In this document: positions 3,710 through 9,477 of the stretch, piece by piece
How positions within the stretch are numbered: the first letter of the stretch is position 1
Layout: each line of letters begins with the position of its first letter
Origin: DASVDK01 sp036381125 [NCBI: Thermodesulfobacteriota bacterium]
GTDB taxonomy: Bacteria; DASVDK01
DNA: 14,115 nucleotides
NCBI GenBank assembly: GCA_036381125.1
Contig: DASVDK010000303.1
Coordinates: 1 to 14,115 of the forward strand
Direction: 5' to 3'
The notes under the pieces: generated by a model
The model's database searches: none
What the model was told of the DNA's origin: nothing
The model's input: the letters and a program-made list of their open reading frames with translations, nothing else
Program-made: the position numbers and the translations under genes

Positions 3710-5115
3710 ACGGTACGCACGTGGCGTCGCACCGGGACGATGTCACGACCAGCGGTGCTCCCGGGGCAGGGGCGCTCGCCCCAGACGAGGATCGACAGCC
3801 CTTGAAGAAGTCATTCGTCCTCGACACCAACGTCCTCCTGTACGACCCGCAGGCGATCTTCCGGTTCGAGGACAACGACGTCATCATCCCCATCACCGTC
3901 ATCGAGGAGATCGACCGGTTCAAGAAGGACGGCAACGAGACCGGCCGCAACGCGCGTCAGGTGTCGCGCTACCTCGACCGGCTGCGCACCGAGGGCCACC
4001 TCTCCGAGGGCGTCCGGCTGCCGCAGGGCGGGATGCTGCGGGTCGAGATGGGCCAGGAGGAGCGCGACGGCCTGCCGCCCGACGACCCGGCCAAGCACGA
4101 CAACCGCATCCTCGCGATCGCCCTCGACGTGATGCGGCGCAACGGGCAGCCGGTCGTGTTCGTTACGAAGGACACGAACCTGCGCATCAAGGCCGACGCG
4201 GTCAGCCTGAAGGCCGAGGACTACGAGAGCGACAAGGTCTCCATCGACGAGGTCTACAGCGGCGTCCGCGAGGTGACCGTTCCGGGCGACGTCGTGGACG
4301 CGTTCTACGCCCAGGGCGAGGCGCGGATGCCGGACCTCGACCTCTACCCGAACCAGTTCGTCATCATGCGCGACGGCGCCGCGCCGAACCACACCGCCAT
4401 CGGCAAGTACGTCCACAGGGACGGCCGCATCGTCCCCATCGGCAAGCGCAAGGAGGCGGTCTGGGGGATCCTCCCGCGCAACCGCGAGCAGCTCTTCGCG
4501 CTCGATCTCCTGCTGAACGACGAGGTCCAGCTCGTCACCCTCCTCGGCAAGGCCGGCACCGGCAAGACGCTCCTCGCCCTGGCCGCCGGGCTCCACAAGA
4601 CCGCGGAGGAGGGCAAGTACCAGCGGATGCTCGTCTCCCGGCCGATCTTCCCGCTCGGCCGCGACATCGGCTTCCTGCCGGGCGACGTGAACGAGAAGCT
4701 CAAGCCCTGGATGCAGCCGATCTTCGACAACGTGGAGCTCCTCATGGGCGGCATCGAGGGGCGGGGCAAGAAGATGCACCGCGGCTACCAGGAGCTGATC
4801 GACATGGGCATGCTCGAGATCGAGCCGCTCACCTACATCCGCGGCCGGAGCATCCCCAATCAGTTCCTGCTCGTCGACGAGGCCCAGAACCTGACGCCGC
4901 ACGAGATCAAGACCATCGTCTCGCGCGCCGGCGAGGACACCAAGCTCGTCCTCACGGGTGATCCCTACCAGATCGACAACCCGTACGTCGACTCGGACTC
5001 GAACGGGCTCACCTACCTGGTCGAGAAGTTCAAGGGTGAGCCGATCGCCGGCCACGTCACGCTGGTCAAGGGCGAGCGCAGCCGGCTCGCCGAGCTGGCC
5101 GCCAACCTCCTGTGA
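3706..5115 (+). CDS. phoH2: PhoH-family ATPase with N-terminal PIN domain (PhoH2/YlaK type)
   Basis: A fusion of a PIN-type ribonuclease domain and a PhoH ATPase, a family in which mycobacterial PhoH2 acts as an RNA helicase/RNase. From GTG 3706 (469 aa), the PIN domain begins at KSFVLDTNVLLYDP (Asp40), with further acidic residues in VIEEIDRF, KHDNRILAIALD and TKDTNLRIKAD. The PhoH domain has Walker A GKAGTGKT (281-288, Lys287), RPIFPLGRDIGFLPGD, Walker B LLVDEAQN (Asp391) and LTGDPYQIDNPY. The end is the family-typical KGERSRLAELAANLL. GTG 3706 overlaps the lipoprotein stop (GTGA). TTG 3802, with GAGG 11 nt upstream, would begin directly at the PIN domain and give 437 aa, close to the usual family length, so the first 32 residues are doubtful. 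Function is clear at family level; the RNA target is not known. Confidence 0.93.
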   Translation: MNGTHVASHRDDVTTSGAPGAGALAPDEDRQPLKKSFVLDTNVLLYDPQAIFRFEDNDVIIPITVIEEIDRFKKDGNETGRNARQVSRYLDRLRTEGHLSEGVRLPQGGMLRVEMGQEERDGLPPDDPAKHDNRILAIALDVMRRNGQPVVFVTKDTNLRIKADAVSLKAEDYESDKVSIDEVYSGVREVTVPGDVVDAFYAQGEARMPDLDLYPNQFVIMRDGAAPNHTAIGKYVHRDGRIVPIGKRKEAVWGILPRNREQLFALDLLLNDEVQLVTLLGKAGTGKTLLALAAGLHKTAEEGKYQRMLVSRPIFPLGRDIGFLPGDVNEKLKPWMQPIFDNVELLMGGIEGRGKKMHRGYQELIDMGMLEIEPLTYIRGRSIPNQFLLVDEAQNLTPHEIKTIVSRAGEDTKLVLTGDPYQIDNPYVDSDSNGLTYLVEKFKGEPIAGHVTLVKGERSRLAELAANLL

Positions 5116-5199
5116 CCGGCGAGCCGCGTCGTCGTGACCGACGGCGTCTCGTCCAGGTCTTGCGTTGAACGAAAGAGCATCTACGAAGTCTTGTGGCCG

Positions 5200-5208
5200 T
5201 GGTATAGT
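5200..5208 (+). promoter_or_regulatory. Putative extended -10 promoter TGGTATAGT ahead of the methyltransferase
   Basis: TGn-TATAGT fits an extended -10 element, which can work without a good -35; none is visible at 16-18 nt. The expected transcription start is about 5215. It lies in the 169-nt gap after phoH. A TTG at 5216, in frame with the methyltransferase, follows seven bases later. If the restriction cassette is an insertion, this promoter might be the original promoter of the downstream housekeeping gene. Confidence 0.4.
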
Positions 5209-5284
5209 CTGGGCCTTGCTGCGGTCTGCCGCTCCGTGTGCCCATTGGCGGCGGATGGGATCCCTCCCGAACCCGGAATGTGCC

Positions 5285-6220
5285 ATGACCGTTCGAGTTC
5301 AGGAATCGGAGCGTAAGGGGCGGTCGGTCGCCAGAGAAGTCAACGGGGTGAGGTACTCGCTCCACCTGGTCGACTGCTTCGCGTGGATGCAGGAGGCTCG
5401 TGCCTGCTCCGTTCACGCCATCGTGACCGATCCGCCGTACGGGCTACGCGAGTACACGGAGGAGGAGAAGGCCAAGCTGAGGCGCCGGAGGGGCGGGATC
5501 TGGCGCATCCCGCCGACCTTCGACGGATGCCGGCGCTCTCCGCTGCCGCGCTTCACGGTGCTGACCGAAGCCGATCGGGCGGCGTTGCGGGCGTTCTTCT
5601 CCCGCTTCGCGACGCTCGCGTTTCGAGTCCTGGTGCCGGGCGGGCACGTGATCGTCGCGACGAACCCGCTCCTGTCGCACCTGGTGTACCTGCCGCTCAT
5701 GGAAGCGGGCTTCGAGAAGCGAGGGGAGATCATCAGGCTCGTGCGAACGCTTCGGGGCGGCGATCGACCGAAGAACGCGCACGACGAGTTCGCCGAAGTC
5801 ACCGTCATGCCGCGCTCGTCCTGGGAGCCGTGGGGGCTCTTCCGGAAGCCGTGCGAGGGGCGTGTCCAGGACAATCTTCGGAAGTGGAGGACCGGCGGGC
5901 TGCGGCGCCCGTCGTCGCTGGTGCCGTTTTCGGACGTCATCGTGTCGGCCCCGACGCGCCCCGAGGAACGTGCGATCGCGCCTCACCCCTCGCTCAAGCC
6001 CCAGGCGTTCATGCGGCAGATCGTGCGCGCGTCTCTGCCCATGGGCGAGGGCGTGGTGCTGGATCCGTTCATGGGCGCCGGATCGACCATTGCCGCGGCG
6101 ATCGCCGTCGGCTACGAGAGCATCGGGTTGGAAGTGGACGACGTCTTCTTCGAGGTTGCTGAACGTGCCGTCCCGCGGCTGTCCACCTTCGGCAGGGTCG
6201 TTCAGCAGTCCTTCGTTTGA
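5285..6220 (+). CDS. Site-specific DNA amino-methyltransferase (N6-adenine or N4-cytosine), beta class
   Basis: An AdoMet-dependent enzyme that methylates the exocyclic amino group of A or C in a target site. From ATG 5285 (311 aa), motif IV DPPYG is at 49-53 near the N-terminus. The AdoMet-binding motif I, DPFMGAGST, is at 260-268 near the C-terminus, preceded by HPSLKP (234-239). That IV-then-I order defines the beta class of the N6/N4 methylase family. A likely target-recognition part is the polar segment between about 150 and 225; there is no large separate TRD. ATG 5255 and TTG 5216 are in-frame upstream alternatives; none has a convincing SD. The stop overlaps the TTG of the next gene (TTGA), pairing it with a nuclease-like protein. 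Composition drops below that of the neighbours, suggesting acquisition. The target sequence cannot be predicted. Confidence 0.9.
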   Translation: MTVRVQESERKGRSVAREVNGVRYSLHLVDCFAWMQEARACSVHAIVTDPPYGLREYTEEEKAKLRRRRGGIWRIPPTFDGCRRSPLPRFTVLTEADRAALRAFFSRFATLAFRVLVPGGHVIVATNPLLSHLVYLPLMEAGFEKRGEIIRLVRTLRGGDRPKNAHDEFAEVTVMPRSSWEPWGLFRKPCEGRVQDNLRKWRTGGLRRPSSLVPFSDVIVSAPTRPEERAIAPHPSLKPQAFMRQIVRASLPMGEGVVLDPFMGAGSTIAAAIAVGYESIGLEVDDVFFEVAERAVPRLSTFGRVVQQSFV

Positions 6221-6858
6221 GGAACCAGCGGACGGACGGGTTCGATCCTTCCGTCCCTCTCCCGCCGCAGCTGAAGCTCTCGCACATCCGAGAGGCCATC
6301 GCCTATATCGAGGAGCGCGCCGACGACTTCGTCGACGTGTACTACGAGCAATCCAATGTCTTCAGCGCACTCATCGGGATACTCGGCACCTCTGCCCTGA
6401 ATGCGCTGAGCCCGTACAAGAAGCACAAGCACCCTGACGTCGCCCAGCAGCGCTTTCCCGACCTCTCACTCGACGGTAAGCTGAACCCCCCTCCCAAGCA
6501 GTGCCTGGAGTCCAAGGCGAGCAGCCGGCCGTGGGAGATCCAATCCCACTATAACCACGCGGGTTGGTACATTATCTGGCGATACGCCGTGGATCCCACG
6601 CGACGGATGAAGCCGCCCCGACGGGTCCTGATCTGGCGCGTAGACGTCGTGTACCTCGGCACGGAGGACTGGAAGTACGAGAAGAGCAAGGCCGAGCAAG
6701 GCAAGGGCGGCAGGACGCACACCTTCGGCGTGCCGAGGCCGAAGGAGCGGCTCGAGAACGCGATCGTCTATCAAGCACCGGGAATCGGTCTGTCCCGGGG
6801 AAGGCCTACGTTGGGTGCGGAACAGCTCCCGGCGCGACTCGTGCGGCAGGGCTCGTGA
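6217..6858 (+). CDS. Putative type II restriction endonuclease with PD-(D/E)xK signature
   Basis: A 213-aa protein I do not recognise as any named restriction enzyme. Residues Pro81-Asp82, then Glu98-Ser99-Lys100 (FPDLSL ... CLESKAS) reproduce the PD-X(10-30)-(D/E)xK metal-binding core of many restriction nucleases, with the expected hydrophobic residues around each strand. An N-terminal helix (HIREAIAYIEERADDFVDVY) with Glu44 just after it and a later aromatic-rich strand (GWYIIWRYAVD) are compatible with that fold. The TTG start at 6217 overlaps the methyltransferase stop (TTGA), so translation is likely coupled and dependent on prior methylase synthesis. GC is clearly lower here: 33 of 60 bases at 6541-6600, against 43 of 60 at 4561-4620 and 7621-7680. 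Size and placement fit a type II restriction partner; this is an inference from motif and context. Confidence 0.65.
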   Translation: MRNQRTDGFDPSVPLPPQLKLSHIREAIAYIEERADDFVDVYYEQSNVFSALIGILGTSALNALSPYKKHKHPDVAQQRFPDLSLDGKLNPPPKQCLESKASSRPWEIQSHYNHAGWYIIWRYAVDPTRRMKPPRRVLIWRVDVVYLGTEDWKYEKSKAEQGKGGRTHTFGVPRPKERLENAIVYQAPGIGLSRGRPTLGAEQLPARLVRQGS

Positions 6859-6879
6859 CGGCGTGATCGGGTGCCTCCC

Positions 6880-7923: not shown

Positions 7924-9477
7924 GTGCTCATCGAGACTTCCGGGCTCGGGCGACGCTACGGCCGGGCCGTGGCGGTGGCCGGCGTGGACCTCGCGCTGCC
8001 GGCCGGCGAGGTGCTGGCGCTCCTCGGCCCCAACGGCGCCGGCAAGACGACCCTCCTCAAGCTGCTTGCCGGCCTCGTCGCGCCGACCTCGGGCAGTGGA
8101 CGGGTGGCCGGCTGCGATCTCCAGGGCGACCGCGAGGGGGTCCGGGCCGCAGTCGGCGTCCTCGCCCACGGCTCCCACCTCTACGACGAGCTGACGGCGC
8201 TCGAGAACCTGCGCTTCGCGGCGGCGATGCGCGGCATCGACCGGGACCGGGCGGCGCTGCTCGCCGCGCTCGAGGGGGTCGGCCTGCGCCGGGCGGCCGA
8301 TCAGCGGGTGCGGCAGTTCTCGAGCGGCATGAAGCGGCGGCTGGGGCTCGCGCGCCTGCGCATGATCGAGCCGCAGGTCCTGCTCGTGGACGAGCCGTAC
8401 GCCGGGCTCGACCAGTCGGGCGCGGCGCTGTTCGAGACGGTCGTGGCCGAGGCGCTGGCGCGCGGCGCGGCGGTGGTCATGGCGACCCACCAGCTCGGCA
8501 AGGCGCACGCCCTGGCGCACCGGGTCGCCATCCTCGCGGGCAACCGGCTCGCGTACGCCGGGCGGACGGCGGAGACGGACCTCGAGGGGCTGCGGCAGAT
8601 CTACGCCCGCTGCACGGAGGAGATGCCGGAGCGGGCGGCGGTGGCGGTCCCGGTCGGGGCGGTGCCCGGCGTCGAGCCGGCGCTGCCGCCTCGGCCGGAG
8701 GCCCTGCCGACCCGGGTGGACCCCGCGCCGTCGTCGGCGGCACGGCGGTCGACGGGCGCGCCGCACGGTTCGGCGGCCGCGAAGCCGCGGCCGCGCGGCG
8801 GATCGTTCCTCGCCCGGACGCGGGCCATTCTCTGGAAGGACGTCCTCGTCGAGCGGCGGACCAAGGAGTCGACCGTCGCGATGGTCTTCTTCGCGACGCT
8901 CGTCCTCTTCATCTTCGCGTTCGCCCTGGGGGCCGACCGGACGCGGCTCAGGGACGCCTCGCCGGGGCTCCTCTGGGTGGCGTTCGTCTTCACCGGCGTG
9001 CTCGGGCTCGCCCGCGGCTTCCAGGTGGAGCGGGAAAACGACGCCCTCGACGGCCTTCTCCTCCATCCGGGCGACAAGAGCCCCATCTACCTCGCCAAGC
9101 TGGCGGGCAACCTCCTCTTCGTCGGCGCGGTGGAGCTGCTCGTGATCCCGCTCATGGCGGTCTTCTACAACCTGGACCTCTGGCCGGTCGCGCCCGGCAT
9201 CCTCGGCGTGGCGCTCCTCGGCACGCTCGGCTTCGCCGCGCTGGGGACGCTCTACTCGGCCCTGACGGCCAACTTCAGGTTCCGCGAGGTGCTCCTGCCG
9301 CTCCTCCTCCTGCCCGCCACCGTCCCGGTGCTCCTCGGGGGGGTGGAGGCCACGGGGGCGCTCATCCGGGACGGCGCCCTGGGAGACGCGAAGCGCTGGA
9401 TCGGCGTCCTGGCGGCCTTCGATACGGTATACGTGACCGCCTGTTTGCTACTCTTCGAGCACGTCATCGAGGACTAG
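7924..9477 (+). CDS. ccmAB: Fused heme exporter CcmA-CcmB (ATPase plus permease in one chain)
   Basis: One uninterrupted 517-codon frame encodes both parts of the ABC module that releases holo-CcmE during System I cytochrome c maturation. Residues 1-233 are CcmA: Walker A GPNGAGKT (35-42, Lys41), signature FSSGMKRRLGLARL, Walker B LLVDEPYAGLD (Asp156, Glu157) and H-loop MATHQ. Residues about 234-293 form a Pro/Ala/Val/Arg-rich linker without predicted secondary structure. Residues about 294-517 are CcmB: SFLARTRAILWKD and ERRTKES, then about six membrane segments with the family motif FQVERENDALDGLLLHP and a final VYVTACLLLFEHVIED. In most bacteria these are two genes of about 200-240 aa each. 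No stop separates them, though in-frame GTGs in the linker (for example 8641 and 8662) could allow internal initiation of CcmB. Start GTG 7924 has no SD but lies six bases after a -10-like element. Confidence 0.93.
   Translation: MLIETSGLGRRYGRAVAVAGVDLALPAGEVLALLGPNGAGKTTLLKLLAGLVAPTSGSGRVAGCDLQGDREGVRAAVGVLAHGSHLYDELTALENLRFAAAMRGIDRDRAALLAALEGVGLRRAADQRVRQFSSGMKRRLGLARLRMIEPQVLLVDEPYAGLDQSGAALFETVVAEALARGAAVVMATHQLGKAHALAHRVAILAGNRLAYAGRTAETDLEGLRQIYARCTEEMPERAAVAVPVGAVPGVEPALPPRPEALPTRVDPAPSSAARRSTGAPHGSAAAKPRPRGGSFLARTRAILWKDVLVERRTKESTVAMVFFATLVLFIFAFALGADRTRLRDASPGLLWVAFVFTGVLGLARGFQVERENDALDGLLLHPGDKSPIYLAKLAGNLLFVGAVELLVIPLMAVFYNLDLWPVAPGILGVALLGTLGFAALGTLYSALTANFRFREVLLPLLLLPATVPVLLGGVEATGALIRDGALGDAKRWIGVLAAFDTVYVTACLLLFEHVIED

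Follow-up and report, generated by a model that had tools for sequence, protein, structure and literature searches.

The methylase gene (M) and nuclease gene (R) that lie side by side in the window (the whole 14,115-nucleotide stretch of DNA analysed here) are very probably a horizontally acquired Type II restriction-modification (R-M) system, in which R encodes a PD-(D/E)xK endonuclease of the EcoRV-like branch. The computed basis for this assignment is the pairing of the two genes across phyla, the conserved catalytic triad of R, its fold prediction, the atypical base composition of the pair and the differing nucleases found beside related methylases. The original prediction, made from the sequence alone, was of a compact R-M pair, and is supported by the profile of M, by its linkage to R (26 of 27 loci), by the triad (22 of 22 uninterrupted R sequences) and by a predicted restriction-enzyme fold.

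In the mechanism that we propose, a two-gene Type II system would have entered between phoH and tsaD by horizontal transfer. M would methylate an amino group in a short specific sequence of the host DNA, and R would cut the same sequence when it is unmethylated, such that incoming phage or plasmid DNA would be destroyed. The active form of R would most likely be a homodimer in which D82, E98 and K100 bind the metal ions. We infer catalysis by R, its metal dependence and its dimerisation, as well as translational coupling of the two genes at their TTGA overlap. The features of the locus are collected in Table 1.

Table 1. Coordinates of the R-M pair and its predicted functional elements in the window
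Feature	Position	Strand	Description
Leader, phoH to M	5116..5284	+	169 bp, GC 0.645
M gene	5285..6220	+	ATG start, 311 aa; beta-class amino-methyltransferase, modification enzyme
M motif IV, DPPYG, residues 49-53	5429..5443	+	Catalytic loop; the same in all 9 aligned sequences
M motif I, DPFMGAGST, residues 260-268	6062..6088	+	AdoMet binding; basis: sequence
TTGA overlap	6217..6220	+	R start TTG and M stop TGA; basis: sequence
R gene	6217..6858	+	TTG start, 213 aa; predicted Type II restriction endonuclease, PD-(D/E)xK, EcoRV-like branch
Asp82 codon	6460..6462	+	Predicted catalytic acid; within FPDL; model strand 82-85
Glu98-Ser99-Lys100 codons	6508..6516	+	Predicted catalytic ExK; 15 residues after D82; strand 96-102

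The pair lies between housekeeping genes and differs from them in GC3

The position of the pair between phoH and tsaD, as originally described, is borne out by the profiles of the flanking genes: a PhoH-like gene ends upstream at 5115 (PhoH2 model, E = 2e-96, under the curated cut-off) and a TsaD gene, above its profile cut-off, starts downstream at 6871. Farther away in the window are a CcmA-like gene, which passes its cut-off, and CcmF/NrfE-like and NrfF-like genes, which do not. Positions 7924-9477 form a single frame of 517 aa, the N-terminal part of which matches CcmA above the curated cut-off; the remainder we take, by eye, to be a CcmB-type membrane protein, which would make this an apparent CcmA-CcmB fusion.

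The pair had also been described as lower in GC than its surroundings, especially in the second gene. Total GC is 0.673 for M and 0.634 for R, and 2.0% of the 642-bp windows of the whole stretch have a GC as low as that of R. The 60-mers of the window contain 43.3 G+C on average and 0.9% of them have 33 or fewer; such 60-mers include stretches of R (6298-6409 and 6525-6601), but others lie in phoH and in the leader (5132-5228). In total GC, PhoH (0.670) is no higher than M, and GC3 is therefore the better argument for an atypical composition. With GC3 values of 0.859 (M) and 0.827 (R), the pair is the lowest of the 13 genes measured, the other 11 ranging from 0.872 to 0.981 (lowest among these are a TPR gene, 0.872, and CcmH, 0.897).

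In a distant relative (G435, locus L140), in which PhoH is 64% and TsaD 59% identical to the window proteins, the gap between phoH and tsaD is about 0.4 kb and holds neither M nor R; this comparison is with one relative, and at the 11 other TsaD loci there was no PhoH match within the flank examined. The best identity of the window TsaD was 61% among 148 genomes of one phylum and 58%, including partial matches, among 20 carrier genomes. A promoter scan of the leader found no sigma-70-type promoter, and promoter and terminator scans at the locus found nothing. With respect to a mobile-element frame, neither a tRNA nor an Rfam match was detected, and none of the repeat pairs resembles the ends of an element.

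M is a beta-class amino-methyltransferase

M matches the PADLOC Type II methyltransferase model PDLC03215 (MTase_II; E = 5e-111, residues 23-302) and the Pfam family N6_N4_Mtase (PF01555; E = 1e-16, above the cut-off). The residue numbers first given for DPPYG and DPFMGAGST were right. Motif IV (DPPY) stands ahead of motif I (FxGxGxT), which is the order of the beta class, as first assigned, and residues D260, F262, G264, G266, S267 and T268 of motif I are invariant in the 9 aligned sequences. Based on DPPY alone, the modified base is probably adenine, at N6. Among solved structures, those closest to M by profile are two 'Methyltransferase' entries, 8urk and 9c3u (profile positions 104-299), together with CcrM, DpnA and MboIIA, which match mainly in the C-terminal part.

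R is a predicted PD-(D/E)xK nuclease outside the named families

Neither Pfam, PADLOC, NCBIfam nor PDB sequences contain a significant match to the window R, and PHROGs gave a single, non-significant one at E = 0.25. Similarly, all 18 members of its family compared with PADLOC and Pfam matched no family there, and neither a helicase nor an ATPase domain was detected in R in the Pfam, PADLOC, NCBIfam and PHROGs searches. The original suggestion that the pair is possibly undescribed holds for these four libraries and for PDB sequences, REBASE being outside this scope. Within titles and the openings of abstracts, we found no description in the literature of the R nuclease, of the exchange of its partners or of its relatives.

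R contains the PD-X15-ESK arrangement first noted, and D82, E98 and K100 are invariant in all 22 uninterrupted R sequences, 18 of them rows of our alignment (A3, from which the broken R sequences of L015, L017, L027 and L028 were left out) and 4 from further loci. Conservation of the triad thus does not refute the earlier reading. The spacing of E98 and K100 from D82 (16 and 18) is the same as that of D90 and K92 from D74 in EcoRV (PMC4081073). R of the window type also has its own FPDL, QSHY and GGRTHTF blocks. The TTG start assigned to R is supported because it sits two codons ahead of the MVRKxDFD start common to several relatives.

The best model of R has an alpha/beta fold (pLDDT 83.9, pTM 0.83; over the five models, pLDDT was 83.9 to 66.7, with two under 70). 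D82 opens one predicted strand and E98 and K100 lie on the next, which is the strand arrangement of PD-(D/E)xK enzymes. Foldseek matched the model to SfiI (E = 2e-3) and BglI (E = 0.03), and to nothing at an E of 1e-3 or below. The VIA Z values, which the tool itself rates as moderate, were 9.3 (144 aligned residues, 5.2 A) and 8.9 for NaeI, 8.2 (149 aligned, 3.7 A) for 3ndh, which we take to be ThaI, 7.6 for SfiI, 7.0 for both DpnI and SwaI, 6.2 for NhoI, 6.1 for EcoRV, 5.8 for BglI and 5.5 for NlaIV. The first 31 rows of the VIA ranking are all restriction-enzyme entries (Z from 9.3 to 5.1), and the next row, which is not a restriction enzyme, has a Z of 3.5. The alpha/beta nuclease core that had been anticipated is in line with this model, in that Type II restriction enzymes are its top solved matches, with moderate scores. 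Because the Z values are moderate, the model makes it likely, not certain, that R belongs to the EcoRV-like (beta) branch of the PD-(D/E)xK enzymes; the available text of two sources places EcoRV, BglI and NaeI in that branch and likens SfiI to BglI (PMC4081073, PMC548270). A viral structure library gave no match at an E of 1e-3 or below, and its top rows were unnamed or uncharacterized.

We found 26 relatives of R (20 genome loci, one viral contig, four loci from a phylum sample and one remnant), which with the window make 27 loci. By record titles the relatives come from about nine phyla, those named in the titles or tree labels of the 20 genome loci being Acidobacteriota, Pseudomonadota, Planctomycetota, Chloroflexota, Armatimonadota, Elusimicrobiota, Nitrospirota, Myxococcota and candidate division FCPU426. 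R was carried by 6 of the 396 genomes in that phylum sample (two known before and four new loci), by 2 of 343 in a further sample (one known, one a remnant), and by 1 of 398 and 1 of 301 in two others (known carriers), all samples being of phyla with known carriers and including those carriers where they were drawn. Most of the hosts are represented by fragmented metagenome bins. This rare and patchy occurrence is as expected for horizontal spread.

M and R are linked across phyla and R is the partner more often broken

M lies directly upstream of R, on the same strand, in 26 of the 27 distinct R loci, a count that includes a locus with a frameshifted M (L012), one cut by a contig end (L019) and one in which the overlap of two contig ends joins the genes (L017 with L128). 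The one exception (L013, contig JACQTF010000196.1) has an uninterrupted R beside a stub of M (residues 12-67) and may be a solitary nuclease or else the result of misassembly. Frequent occurrence of R apart from a methyltransferase was thus not seen (one stub in 27), and in this respect too the earlier reading is not refuted. The two genes are separate and linked, as in Type II systems, R being an endonuclease by prediction. In the bin that contains L013, a piece of M (residues 198-300) is found on another contig, near genes that by eye are rnpA- and yidC-like.

At 5 of the 27 loci R is broken beside an uninterrupted match to M, by in-frame stops (L015, L017 and L027), by truncation (L028) or by a large internal deletion (G866). 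The reverse is seen at two of the 27, with the M stub of L013 and the frameshifted M of L012, where R is open, and both of these are in metagenome assemblies. The stop in the R of L027 is at codon 4, and the next 20 codons contain no ATG, GTG or TTG. In G866 (L146/L147), an uninterrupted methylase match is followed by an R that lacks about residues 36-151; judging from the sequence, restriction has apparently been lost there and methylation kept. We noted that different stops (TGA, TAA) exactly replace the invariant Gln109 in L015 (1683-1685) and L017 (366-368), the frame being open before and after them, and that these two broken R genes come from different phyla and from metagenome assemblies. 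In the broken R of L017, residue 98 is changed as well, to Lys.

The TTGA overlap between the M stop and the R start, also part of the original prediction, is present in the sequence as described. Among 13 relatives, in which R starts with ATG, GTG or TTG, R overlaps M by 4-161 nt in eight and follows it after a gap of 8-77 nt in five, figures that depend on the start codons that we chose, and a 4-nt overlap is found only in L025. The 'safety order' proposed for the pair is less well supported than the rest of the earlier reading: the methylase-first order is conserved, but the TTGA form is not. It is a reasonable supposition that the overlap would delay or limit the synthesis of R in the window.

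Related methylases adjoin other predicted nucleases

Plasmids and phage contigs carry methylases that are 50-71% identical to M and have other neighbours (for the viral methylase loci, the best 80 of 127 were taken, with close inspection up to L043). At least 17 of the related methylases adjoin a protein of 201-307 aa, here called type B, which is convergent with the methylase in 15 of 17 cases and has the motif (H/Y)PD(L/M/I) with ExK 19 or 20 residues on (PD-X19/20-ExK). In hhalign comparisons with R, the type B family scored 97% (E = 7e-11 over 184 columns) and its viral subset 96.5% (E = 1e-9), and single type B members matched the R profile with E values from 3e-8 to 1. Searches of PDB sequences with the single R sequence or with profiles of both nuclease families gave chance matches only. 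The type B model (pLDDT 89) has the same main order of helices and strands as R, and its top match is NaeI (Z 10.5). Hhalign sets the PD of type B against H72-P73-D74 of R, not against F80-P81-D82; D74 is not invariant, and F80-P81-D82 may be the true counterpart, a placement favoured by the order of the strands and by D82 being invariant.

A different nuclease is found on the Microvirga plasmid pMVF16-3, where a match to the PADLOC model PDLC03399 (REase_II; E = 1e-89), here called type C, comes directly after a methylase 64% identical to M. Beside the methylases of L008, L033 and L036, we recognised no type B partner with the A3/R profile and by eye. The methylase of L033 (2977-3864) is on a viral contig right after a gene that by eye is chaperonin-like, without a recognised nuclease, and might act as a phage anti-restriction methylase. 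A related methylase and its convergent HPDL-ExK nuclease are found on two mobilizable plasmids: on pYUI-1 of Pseudomonas (L111:2243-3963) the nuclease is annotated 'hypothetical protein', and on pCol4401-L121 of Klebsiella (L007) it crosses the start of the record and has no listed gene.

In a tree of 46 methylases, the distribution of tandem (type A) and type B partners needs five changes, of which at least two are forced by strongly supported branches. This tree left out L013, the G866 methylase, the near-copies L007, L110 and L043, same-locus copies and the viral matches L044-L109, which score far lower. The methylases of the alphaproteobacterial loci L010 and L014 group with those of types B and C, while their type A nucleases group with that of the window. 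When the 14 type A methylases of a 25-row subset are constrained to one group, the log-likelihood falls by 125 units (AU p = 5e-36, which is not the p value of a group named in advance, because the 25 rows were picked after the first tree). Nucleases thus appear, from these sequences, to have been replaced beside one methylase lineage, an exchange that we infer because the methylase tree rejects a single tandem-type group. A tentative extension, which we doubt slightly more than we believe, is that the methylase is an interchangeable antidote, beside which three kinds of restriction nuclease (two of them remote homologues of each other, the third of another PADLOC family) were swapped in while one recognition sequence was kept; the nucleases would then evolve or be replaced under a constant methylation mark. 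Had the recognition sequence of the lineage stayed the same, all three kinds of nuclease would be isoschizomers.

Alternative explanations for the pair

The decay of R at several loci raises the alternative that the pair is a former R-M system that is now mainly a methylation module, with M active and R drifting or dead in the window, as in several relatives. The five loci with a broken R beside an uninterrupted M match fit this explanation, as do the weak TTG start of the window R and its branch, which is the longest of 25 R sequences (0.97). The window R is nevertheless open, keeps D82, E98 and K100 and departs from the family at 2 of 74 nearly fixed columns, compared to 0-4 in the relatives, and we consider this explanation unlikely.

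Somewhat less probable again is that R is a nuclease with another job, either in nicking or mismatch cleavage (Vsr-like) or in methyl-dependent cutting. DpnI, which is methyl-dependent, and NhoI, bound to methylated DNA according to its title, are among the fold matches of R, and the uninterrupted R beside an M stub in L013 could be read in the same way. But a methyl-dependent cutter next to its own methylase would attack its host; moreover, NaeI, 3ndh, SfiI, SwaI, EcoRV and BglI match R about equally or better, and related or known nucleases adjoin the same methylase lineage. We give hardly any credence to M and R being chance neighbours with R not a nuclease, an idea that draws on the failure of every library searched to name R, but is contradicted by the upstream M in 26 of 27 loci across phyla, the invariant PD-ExK triad and the restriction-enzyme fold prediction.

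Implications

As a Type II endonuclease, R would represent a restriction-enzyme family without an entry in Pfam, PADLOC, NCBIfam or PHROGs. Since the family is missing from these libraries, defence surveys that use their models would see only an orphan methylase at these loci. On the plasmids inspected (pYUI-1 and pCol4401-L121), the type B convergent nuclease has no name either. The general kind of system, Type II R-M defence, is well known, and the evolutionary pattern of the pair is somewhat unusual. The differing nucleases beside one methylase lineage provide a testable case of how R and M recognition stay matched after one of the two has been exchanged. Both enzymes are of small size, and useful specificities may result.

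Comparison with known systems

Small PD/DD...ExK nucleases paired with a DPPY amino-methylase, like the window pair, are described for NruI/Sbo13I in the available text of PMC2890505, in which NruI has 219 aa. By the same description, M.NruI has 267 aa and a gamma-like motif order, the nuclease motif is PD-X21-EVK or DD-X21-EVK and the two genes have opposite directions (PMC2890505). We rejected identity of the window pair with NruI/Sbo13I on this organisation, the two being set apart by the gamma-like 267-aa methylase, the X21 spacing and the opposite orientation as there described.

The predicted fold of R resembles those of the EcoRV-like enzymes NaeI, 3ndh, SfiI, SwaI, EcoRV and BglI, and EcoRV shares the D-X15-ExK spacing, with D where R has E. 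The identity to these enzymes is 8-15% in structural alignments, and R has no sequence relative in the PDB. M resembles the PADLOC Type II methyltransferase model PDLC03215, the library entry of which gives no recognition sequence, whereas no PADLOC model matches the window R. The PDLC03399 REase_II of pMVF16-3 is, like R, directly downstream of a related methylase, but it has 356 aa and does not match the profile of the window R. The type B partner nucleases differ from R in being mostly convergent with the methylase (15 of 17), in their longer D-to-E spacing and with regard to the FPDL, QSHY and GGRTHTF blocks, which are R's own; they are homologous to R by profile, are predicted to have the same main order of helices and strands and are partners of the same methylase family.
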